Positions 2,405 to 33,045 of a stretch of 36,483 bases of DNA are shown here, in pieces. Both the position numbers and the translations under genes were made by a program. This stretch comes from Clostridiales bacterium. GTDB taxonomy: Bacteria; Bacillota; Clostridia; Lachnospirales; Lachnospiraceae. Location: NCBI GenBank assembly GCA_029100885.1, contig JAQXPY010000176.1, positions 1 through 36,483 of the forward strand, written 5' to 3'. Each line of letters opens with the position of its first letter. Positions within the stretch are counted from its first letter, which is position 1. The notes below the pieces were generated by a model. It saw only the letters and a program-made list of their open reading frames with translations, did not search any database and was not told the origin of the DNA.

Positions 2405-2435
2405 AGGAAATAATGGTATTATACTTAAAAGGCTT

Positions 2436-2600
2436 GTAACTATTCAGCACCCGTCATGATCTCAGGCGGAAAAATATGCTTGCATATTTTTCCGGATGAG
2501 ATCGTGACGAGTCTGAGGAGCAGACGGCAAACATATGAGCAAGTAATGAGCCGAAGGCGAATGGATTGCGAATATTCTTTGACGGGTGCTGAATAGTTAC
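2436..2600 (+). mobile_element. GTAA-ended MITE-like element, copy A
   Basis: This 165-bp unit begins GTAACTATTCAGCACC and ends with the exact reverse complement GGTGCTGAATAGTTAC. It is flanked on both sides by the 8-bp direct repeat AAAGGCTT (2428-2435 and 2601-2608), which is the signature of an insertion. It contains no ORF. Inside are a long hairpin (2452-2509), a small conserved hairpin GTCTG-AGGAG-CAGAC (2511-2525) and a third stem-loop centred on GAGCCGAAGGCGA (2548-2560). A second copy in opposite orientation sits at 32720-32882. IS66-family insertion sequences are known for GTAA ends and 8-bp target duplications, so this may be an IS66-derived non-autonomous element. It separates the NCS2 permease from whatever promoter lay upstream. 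Confidence 0.85.
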
Positions 2601-2661
2601 AAAGGCTTTATAACCGGTCTGCAAAGGAAAGGATCGGCAGGAGAAAGGAAAGGGGAGAGCT

Positions 2662-4017
2662 ATGCTGGAAAGATTCTTCAGACTCAGTGATAATCATACT
2701 GATGTCAGAACAGAAGTAAGAGGCGGAATCGTTACTTTCATGACCATGGCTTATATACTGGCGGTAAATCCGAGTGTGCTCTCTTCAACGGGAATGAACC
2801 CGGATGCCGTACTTATCGCTACTGCGGTATCCTCATTTGCAGCCTGCCTGATCATGGGGCTTGTGTCAAACTATCCGATGGCTCTGGCTCCCGCCATGGG
2901 ACTCAATGCTTACATGGCTTATACGGTATGCGGCAGTATGGGCTTCAGCTGGCAGGCTGCGCTGTTTGCGGTATTTCTGGAGGGAATCATTTTTATAATA
3001 CTGTCCCTTACAAATGTCCGGGAGATGATGTTCAATGCCATTCCGCTGAGCCTCAAGAAAGGCATATCCGCAGGCATAGGGCTGTTTATTGCATTTATCG
3101 GACTTCAGAATGCTGGAATAGTGCAGGACAACACATCCACCCTTGTTGCTATTGTGGACTTCAGCGCTTCCATACATTCTACCGGAATATGCGCGGCACT
3201 TGCAATAATCGGAGTAGCGGTGATCGCGGTACTCAGCAGCAAAAACGTTAAGGGAGCTATTCTGATAGGTATTCTGACCACATGGGGACTGGGTATACTG
3301 TGTCAGATGACAGGAGTCTATCTCATAGACGCGGAAAACGGCTTCGGCTCCCTGATCCCGGAGCTTCGCACTGTAAATATCGGGGCAATCAGGGAAACCT
3401 TCGGAGCCTGCTTCAGAATCGGAAGAAATATCAGCATTCCGGATCTGATAGCTATAATGTGCGCGTTTCTGTTTGTGGATCTGTTTGATACACTGGGAAC
3501 ACTGATCGCTGTTGCCGGAAAAGCCGGACTTCTTGATAAAGAGGGAAGGCTGCCTAATATCAAAAAAGCGCTGTTTGCCGATGCTATCGGCACTACTGTG
3601 GGCGCTGTTATGGGAACCTCCACGGTATCGACCTATGTGGAGAGCTCTTCGGGAGTTTCTGAGGGAGCGAGAACAGGACTCGCCTCGGTTGTAACGGGAA
3701 TCATGTTTCTGCTGTCTGTTTTTCTGGCTCCGCTTTTTGTCGCGGTTCCGGGCTTCGCAACAGCACCGGCGCTTATTTATGTGGGCTTTCTCATGATCGG
3801 AACGGTGAAGGACCTTGATTTTGATGATCTGGCAGACAGTATCCCCGCATATCTGACGATCATTTTCATGCCGCTCACCTACAGCATCTCGGACGGAATA
3901 GCAGCGGGAGTGATATTCTATACGATCCTGAATATGATGTCGGGAAAAAGGGAAAGAGTCTCCCCTATGCTGTGTGTGCTTACGGTTTTGTTTATTTTGA
4001 AGTTCGCGCTGATGTGA
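2662..4017 (+). CDS. NCS2-family guanine/hypoxanthine permease (AzgA/PbuG-like)
   Basis: This is a proton-coupled purine base importer of the inner membrane. At 451 residues it has the usual length for the AzgA branch of NCS2. The N-terminus (about 20-75) carries the branch hallmark of TFMTMAYIL followed by NPSVLSSTGM. MALAPAMGLNAY lies near 73-84 and FVDLFDTLGTLIAV near 273-286, a conserved acidic NCS2 segment; GTSTVSTYVESSSGV near 319-333 lines the binding site in this family. Hydrophobic segments are consistent with 12-14 TM helices. GGGGAG precedes the ATG at good distance. No purine riboswitch is visible upstream; instead the MITE-like element ends 61 bp before the start. Substrate specificity among adenine, guanine and hypoxanthine cannot be decided from sequence. 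Confidence 0.93.
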   Translation: MLERFFRLSDNHTDVRTEVRGGIVTFMTMAYILAVNPSVLSSTGMNPDAVLIATAVSSFAACLIMGLVSNYPMALAPAMGLNAYMAYTVCGSMGFSWQAALFAVFLEGIIFIILSLTNVREMMFNAIPLSLKKGISAGIGLFIAFIGLQNAGIVQDNTSTLVAIVDFSASIHSTGICAALAIIGVAVIAVLSSKNVKGAILIGILTTWGLGILCQMTGVYLIDAENGFGSLIPELRTVNIGAIRETFGACFRIGRNISIPDLIAIMCAFLFVDLFDTLGTLIAVAGKAGLLDKEGRLPNIKKALFADAIGTTVGAVMGTSTVSTYVESSSGVSEGARTGLASVVTGIMFLLSVFLAPLFVAVPGFATAPALIYVGFLMIGTVKDLDFDDLADSIPAYLTIIFMPLTYSISDGIAAGVIFYTILNMMSGKRERVSPMLCVLTVLFILKFALM

Positions 4018-22577: not shown

Positions 22578-22622
22578 AAACGAACCGGGAAATTTACGGT
22601 AAGCACATATTCATAAGGATCA

Positions 22623-22712
22623 AGCCGGGGAGTTTCTGCAGAGAAGCTGAGAAAGGAATGATAGTCCTGACCCGTACACCTGATTTGGGTAATGCCAACG
22701 AAGGAAGTCTTT
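22623..22712 (+). promoter_or_regulatory. TPP riboswitch
   Basis: The sequence contains the thi-box elements in order: GGGGAGTTTC (from 22627), GCTGAGA (about 22646-22652), GACCC before ACCTGATTTGGGTAATGCCA (22678-22697) and ACGAAGGAAG. These match the thiamine pyrophosphate aptamer consensus CTGAGA...ACCTGATCTGGRTAATGCCAGCGNAGGGA with modest variation. It precedes thiD and an ABC importer and is followed directly by an intrinsic terminator, so TPP should shut the operon off by early termination. Confidence 0.93.
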
Positions 22713-22725
22713 TTAAGCAGCAGGC

Positions 22726-30824: not shown

Positions 30825-30895
30825 AGGCGACAACCGGATTTGAACCGGTGATCAAGGTTTTGCAGACCTACGCCTTACCACTTGGCTATGTCGCC
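30825..30895 (-). tRNA. tRNA-Cys (GCA anticodon)
   Basis: The 71-nt minus-strand sequence folds as a cloverleaf. The acceptor stem is GGCGACA paired with TGTCGCC, with discriminator T (typical of tRNA-Cys). The D arm is GCCAAGTGGTAAGGC, the anticodon loop CTGCAAA presents GCA, and the T arm is CCGGTTCAAATCCGG. The 3' CCA is not encoded. It is a single-gene unit with its own promoter and terminator. Confidence 0.96.
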
Positions 30896-32660: not shown

Positions 32661-32712
32661 TATACACAGCCGGAGGTGGCAGCGGGAGCTGACACCGTCG
32701 GCTGTTTGTATA
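32661..32712 (+). terminator. Terminator after rubrerythrin
   Basis: TATACACAGCCG (32661-32672) pairs with CGGCTGTTTGTATA (32699-32712) with a bulge, and the interior forms GGTG/CACC and GCAGC/GCTG pairs. The T-run is embedded in the right arm. Confidence 0.6.
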
Positions 32713-32719
32713 TCAAATG

Positions 32720-32882
32720 ATAACTGTTCAGCACCCGGTAAGATTATTCGCAATCCGCTCGCCTTCGGCTCGCTTCTTGCTCATATTCTTACCGTCTGCT
32801 CCTCAGACCTTTCAGGATTTCATCAGGAAAAACATACAAGCATGTTTTTCCTGATATAATCCTTCAGGTGCTGAATAGTTAC
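32720..32882 (-). mobile_element. GTAA-ended MITE-like element, copy B (inverted)
   Basis: Read on the minus strand this 163-bp unit starts GTAACTATTCAGCACC like copy A and ends GGTGCTGAACAGTTAT, with two base changes in the right end. It is flanked by 8-bp direct repeats ATCAAATG (32712-32719) and ATTAAATG (32883-32890), 7 of 8 identical. The small hairpin GTCTG-AGGAG-CAGAC (32792-32808 with flank) and GAGCCGAAGGCGA (32759-32771) are identical to copy A. The long hairpin is kept as a 14-bp perfect stem (32822-32835 with 32842-32855), but its sequence differs from copy A by paired changes. No ORF is present. Confidence 0.85.
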
Positions 32883-32889
32883 ATTAAAT

Positions 32890-33045
32890 GATATATTGCA
32901 GCAAATCATATAGTATACTAAAAGATATATCGCAGTAAATGATATAATATAGTAAAATAAAATATCGCAGCAATGTGATTTGCTGCAGGAAAATGACGTA
33001 TCGCATTAAGATGATAGATCGCGGTAATGTGATACATCGCTGAAT
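32890..33045. repeat. AT-rich tandem repeats with period 34
   Basis: Copies at 32890-32923 and 32924-32957 are near-identical (GATATATTGCAGCAAAT versus GATATATCGCAGTAAAT, then CATATAGTATACTAAAA versus GATATAATATAGTAAAA). Diverged units with the core ATCGC follow to about 33045. A TATAAT-like string lies in the second copy. The tract abuts the right target duplication of MITE-like copy B and precedes the CxxC protein gene. Confidence 0.7.

Follow-up and report, generated by a model that had tools for sequence, protein, structure and literature searches.

Correia, ERIC, BOX and RUP sequences are short, foldable bacterial repeats that carry no transposase gene. Elements of the IS66 family produce 8-bp repeats and have inverted repeats starting with GTAAGCG (PMC11946415), and the table rows for ISPpa5a and ISPpa7 show an 8 (PMC3281130). 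The Clostridiales-1 motif (Rfam RF01699) was published in 2010 and is listed in Table 1 of that report as "probably" an RNA and as not cis-regulatory (PMC2864571). We analyzed a 36,483-nucleotide stretch of DNA from a Clostridiales bacterium of the Lachnospiraceae, referred to here as the window, which contains two miniature inverted-repeat transposable elements (MITEs), copies A and B. Like the Correia, ERIC, BOX and RUP repeats, they are short and foldable and lack a transposase, but here, unlike in those repeats, one type of core is combined with ends of two unrelated kinds and with duplications of two lengths. With the IS66-family insertion sequences (IS) of the ~1.8-kb kind, represented by an element on a viral contig (locus L325), they share the terminal sequence, the GTAA start and the 8-bp duplication, but they possess no transposase gene and have only the terminal 17 bp in common with L325, and their ends are of the form GTAACTATTCAG in contrast to the published GTAAGCG. 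Copies A and B are very probably non-autonomous MITEs with IS66-type ends, which were moved in trans and carry a Clostridiales-1-type core as shared cargo.

The positions of the two elements are listed in the table. The preliminary description had located both copies, with 8-bp direct repeats on either side that were exact for A, and this was confirmed, with the flanks of B agreeing at 7 of 8 positions. It had also assigned 16-bp inverted repeats starting with GTAA to both copies; these are present, but the repeat of A (GTAACTATTCAGCACCCGTCA) is perfect over 21 bp, whereas the ends of B agree at 14 of 16 bases and one of them starts with ATAA. The inverted ends of both copies are of the GTAACTATTCAGCACC type. 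When the window was searched with the 16-bp end, allowing up to three mismatches, five matches were found against 0.22 expected, four of which correspond to the termini of the two copies. Alignment of A with B gave 81% identity (E 9e-37). As for the absence of an open reading frame, nothing of transposase size was found, but short frames do exist, the longest being 56 amino acids touching A and 45 amino acids touching B.

Table. Features of copies A and B and of the gene next to copy A (positions in the window)
Feature	Position	Strand	Remarks
Copy A, complete 165-bp MITE with a Clostridiales-1-like core	2436..2600	+	RF01699, 40.3 bits, full model
Copy A, left target-site duplication	2428..2435	.	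AAAGGCTT
Copy A, right target-site duplication	2601..2608	.	AAAGGCTT, 8/8
Copy A, left terminal inverted repeat	2436..2456	+	21 bp, perfect
Copy A, right terminal inverted repeat	2580..2600	-	
Copy A, long hairpin (P2)	2453..2508	+	GCTTGC apex; predicted folds
Copy A, core stem (P3)	2528..2581	+	conserved columns of the 33-sequence alignment
Copy B, 163-bp element	32720..32882	-	RF01699, 47.1 bits
Copy B, target-site duplication	32883..32890	.	CATTTAAT, minus-strand reading
Copy B, target-site duplication	32712..32719	.	CATTTGAT, minus-strand reading, 7/8
Permease gene (PF00860)	2662..4017	+	same strand as A, with its start 61 bp downstream

The preliminary description had counted two copies in 30 kb and had proposed a search of the whole genome for others. 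Such a search of the source genome, a draft of 183 contigs with a completeness of 92.8%, gave 58 BLAST matches that merged into 47 stretches, or 40 sites when pieces up to 150 bp apart were joined. A and B are thus real, but the earlier count understated the family, which has ~40 sites in this genome. When the search was extended to the genus, three of the 24 other genomes matched the element, all of them only in part and none over its full length, so that close relatives are poor in it.

Target-site duplications were examined in 17 full-length copies. Among flank lengths of 3 to 12 bp, only 8 bp stood out: 75 of 136 positions matched against 43.9 expected (z 5.57), none of 5000 shuffles scored as high, and in registers displaced by 1 to 3 bases the sum of matches fell to 34-45. 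At least 6 of 8 positions agreed in seven of the 17 copies (8/8 in two, 7/8 in three and 6/8 in two), compared with 2 of 272 mispaired flanks. The flanks of the remaining 10 copies matched at four or fewer positions, for which old age is one explanation only. The 17 copies come from 28 pairings of ends, after removal of eight that were nested or alternative, two weak and distant ones (L105 and L109) and a 113-bp one (L019); copies cut by contig ends (L011-L013) allowed no pairing.

We searched for a mobile element with the same ends by a pattern scan of viral contigs, which yielded 45 stretches. One of them, from IMGVR_UViG_3300006217_000018 (L325), contains two ends 1,796 bp apart, the left one (GTAACTATTCAGCACC) identical to the end in the window and the right one being GTAACTATTCAGAACC, and the element is flanked on both sides by CTATGGCA, an exact 8-bp duplication. 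Its main inner frame encodes an IS66 transposase (PF03050, E 2.9e-39). At positions 983-2417 of this locus the transposase is found in two overlapping frames, and this copy may be frameshifted, since the upstream frame overlaps the main one. The left end of the L325 element is identical to the first 17 bases of the left terminal inverted repeat of copy A, after which the two sequences part. Since the likeness is confined to these terminal bases and does not extend into the subterminal sequence, the MITE did not arise by deletion of the middle of that IS, the one IS that was compared base by base. The expectation in the preliminary description that matching ends would be found on an IS66 transposase gene was thus borne out by L325, over 17 bases.

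Relatives of the L325 transposase were detected by protein search in 33 of 397 genomes of the same family. We surveyed 41 loci, 31 of which gave a hit. Among relatives that are at least 43% identical and aligned to residue 437 or beyond, all eight carry the motif at the stop codon, as does L325; in these nine loci it has 0-2 mismatches in 12 and starts at a distance of 8-11 nt from the stop codon's first base. In a relative aligned to residue 427 (L393, 48% identical) the motif, with a single mismatch, overlaps the stop codon, and another relative, aligned to residue 434 (L400, 44%), is without it, which lowered our high confidence in the main reading by a trace. Relatives of 24-31% identity, in which looser motifs lie further away, were left uncounted. 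Only L325 and L376 have both ends available; in the latter (58% identical), 18 of 20 end bases match and the flanks agree at 2 of 8 positions, giving no clear duplication. The ends and the 8-bp duplication of L325, its PF03050 frame and the eight of eight relatives support the earlier proposal that the MITEs are non-autonomous IS66 derivatives.

The interior of the element was compared with known structured RNAs. RF01699 matches A over its whole length, but the score of A lies below the gathering score of 48. The source genome contains 19 matches, the best scoring 49.7 and 48.8, and 17 of the 19, including B, fall below 48. Across the order, matches were found in 57 of 295 genomes, the source genome included, 42 of them above the gathering score, and 14 control genomes gave no match. 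The resemblance to Clostridiales-1 thus consists of a covariance match across the full model, the GCTTGC hairpin and the TGAG...CGAAT stem. In the 33-sequence alignment, P3 contains a near-invariant TGAG (2536-2539) and CGAAT (2569-2573), which we read as a putative tandem G-A motif. The copies in the source genome differ from Clostridiales-1 in having IS66 ends and in lacking its last hairpin, which is absent from all three of them that are in the same alignment. The element had been thought to be undescribed, which does not hold for its interior, and we consider this resemblance the more interesting half of the result. We found no description of RF01699 as mobile under its name or accession, among other papers by title and in the 2010 report apart from its Additional File 1, and searches for IS66 with MITE, Lachnospiraceae with MITE and MITE with structured RNA returned, in titles and the starts of abstracts, nothing on this element.

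Near-identical copies of RF01699 elements were present in three other genomes (G146, G282 and G313), and ends of a second kind were counted in G282 and G313. In these two genomes the elements begin with TGACGTAAGGGTCAAAAG; 16 of 17 are 190 bp long and have an inverted TGAGGTAGGTGTCAAAAG-type repeat at their other end, and the remaining one measures 159 bp. Exact 5-bp duplications flank 14 of these 17 copies (z 6.34; shuffling predicts 2.6), and 6-bp duplications, also exact, flank the remaining three; among lengths of 2 to 10 bp, 5 bp is the only one that stands out. This count covers 18 loci with L226 omitted. Similar ends with mostly 5-bp repeats were seen by eye, uncounted, in G146. The part matched by RF01699 ends before the right transposon end, by 35 bp in G282 and G313 and by 28 bp, as judged by eye, in G146. 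Together the three genomes hold 115 counted ends of the TGA...GTGTCAAAAG type, and in the 30 loci that were read the elements range from 39 to 473 bp, with 14 of the 30 having no second end that the pattern could find. A viral scan for these ends gave one match, whose second end was not found. Two elements of 39 and 49 bp in G282 (L433 and L421) consist of little beyond two terminal repeats and have short flanking duplications.

The GTAACTATTCAG ends are likewise found with other contents. In the elements read from G080 they surround a different interior, and among six distinct complete pairings the flanks agree at 8 of 8 positions in three, at 6 of 8 in one, and at three and one positions in the others. 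Three loci of this genome (L292, L294 and L361) have GTAACTATTCAG ends with 8-bp duplications, and the interior of L292 and L294 is quite different, with TGTCATTGCGAGG-type repeats. G322 contains a 75-bp element with the same ends and an exact 8-bp repeat that comprises little beyond the TGAG...CGAAT stem. These elements indicate that the same ends occur with different contents, and similar contents with different ends. Since the core has other ends and 5-bp duplications in two genomes, a single folded core travels in two transposon systems or more. In this larger picture, mobile elements whose ends are of at least two kinds have Clostridiales-1 as their folded core.

We suggest that the terminal repeats of A and B belong to a small IS66-family clade within the same bacterial family, whose transposase, acting in trans, would cut and insert MITEs of this type and leave the 8-bp duplications. 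Between the ends lies a folded core of the Clostridiales-1 type, composed of the long hairpin and the TGAG...CGAAT stem, which is cargo common to at least two transposition systems, given the different ends and 5-bp duplications in two related genomes. The ends, the duplications, an IS66 element with matching ends, the core match (in part below the Rfam threshold) and the second kind of end were observed directly, while movement in trans, the joining of the ends to the core and any function that the core may have are inferred.

The ends could in principle derive from another transposase family that leaves duplications of 8 bp, for example IS256, ISL3 or IS6, with the likeness to IS66 due to chance. 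Consistent with this, searches of the source genome, at its 92.8% completeness, detected neither a PF03050 match nor a transposase of the L325 type. A MITE does not strictly require a transposase in the same genome. The 17-base identity to the terminus of an IS66 element that has its own 8-bp duplication, together with the conserved motif position in eight of eight relatives, makes such an origin highly improbable. Among 27 chosen genomes, seven had PF03050 matches, and in the 10 loci that were read GTAACTATTCAG never occurred with fewer than two mismatches; viral contigs scanned with the transposase returned only the contig of L325; and the plasmid and phage collections gave no match. A question about the core rather than the ends is whether Clostridiales-1 truly functions as an RNA, regulatory or acting in trans, that was selected in 5' leaders, the transposon ends having merely dispersed it. 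The fold is strong, with z values for the whole element against shuffles of -12.7 (DNA parameters) and -11.3 (RNA parameters), and the "probably" RNA entry in Table 1 of the 2010 report points the same way. So does orientation: of the 30 top-scoring elements, one per genome, 20 have a gene start on the same strand within 250 nt downstream, compared with 3 on the other side, although top-scoring elements may be atypical and a simple rule based on Shine-Dalgarno sequences and open reading frames was used to call gene starts. Over 60 loci from ten genomes the corresponding counts were 33 and 13, in a set that contains near-identical copies and loci also present among the 30. Against this, orientation was balanced in G146 (3 and 3) and G313 (5 and 5), both of which have clear transposon copies, and the lean in the source genome was weak and not significant (6 versus 3 of 16, that is, of the 17 full-length copies with L198 omitted).

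Mismatches within the helices bear on the same question, since selection at the RNA level should favor G-U pairs. G-T and A-C mismatches were scored at equal cost, and 54 of 106 elements were dropped as short or more than 85% alike. In the internal helices of 43 non-redundant elements from other genomes we counted 24 G-T and 25 A-C, alongside 1789 Watson-Crick pairs and 112 mismatches of other kinds, the 95% interval of the G-T share being 0.34 to 0.64. By helix, G-T versus A-C was 17 versus 22 in the long hairpin, 7 versus 2 in the outer part of the core stem, 0 versus 0 in its inner part, 0 versus 1 in the last hairpin and 8 versus 7 in the end repeats. The outer core stem thus speaks for an RNA, as does the long hairpin of the source genome's own copies (22 versus 4 in nine copies), but the G-T pairs of the latter probably stem in part from shared descent. 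In 17 tRNAs from the fetched loci the same count gave 15 G-T and no A-C, although this control follows the stems chosen by ARAGORN itself. Other versions of the strand test gave 33 versus 7 in own copies and 30 versus 16 in other genomes (initial version), and, for the long hairpin with one element per genome, 8 versus 11 in 29 elements and 36 versus 7 in 14 own copies; the latter version omits L085 and two own copies, whose apex was not recognized. The lack of a G-U excess in other genomes weakens the RNA label, and we regard dispersal of a genuine RNA as rather unlikely. The pairing might instead be kept at the DNA level, by a cruciform or single-strand hairpin that aids transposition or replication, or by palindrome correction. 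The absence of strand asymmetry in other genomes fits such a role, and the arms of the hairpin vary between genomes while nearly perfect pairing is kept; on the other hand, the sense bias near genes is left unexplained, and the own copies have their G-T excess, so that a DNA role too seems doubtful. A further account, which we put forward tentatively as less likely than not, is that Clostridiales-1, rather than being an RNA gene in its own right, is a folded, portable module taken up by unrelated transposons (the IS66 clade with 8-bp duplications and the TGA...GTGTCAAAAG elements with 5-bp duplications), which either was kept preferentially in the sense direction just upstream of genes as a mobile leader switch or has a DNA fold exploited by both transposases.

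As the core of mobile elements, RF01699, an orphan Rfam family, gains a physical identity. This would account for the many copies of the family, and a conserved RNA function need not follow from its covariation. This also carries a warning for covariation screens, in that terminal inverted repeats can mimic the closing helix of an RNA. With the IS66 ends and transposase named, mobilization of the MITEs by that transposase becomes directly testable, and the question is raised of why two different transposition systems share one folded core.

For an empty-site comparison at copy A we collected loci that have a related permease. Eighty loci were kept (54-63% identical), and 16 more (49-56% identical in protein) came from a genus-wide DNA search that matched 9 of 25 genomes, the source genome included. 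None of the 96 has the glmS neighbor, so they offered no site for comparison. Many of the permease relatives carry the name Lachnospiraceae.

In several places the right half of the element, consisting of the core stem and the right end (~80 bp), is repeated in tandem two or three times (L198 163-482, L008, L017 and G024:C52:47143-47380). One copy of the source genome lies within a cluster of tRNAs, two of which stand on either side of it (L017 1293-1995, contig C41). The window itself also contains a TPP riboswitch (RF00059, 59.2 bits) at 22616-22723 on the plus strand and a tRNA at 30825-30895 on the minus strand.
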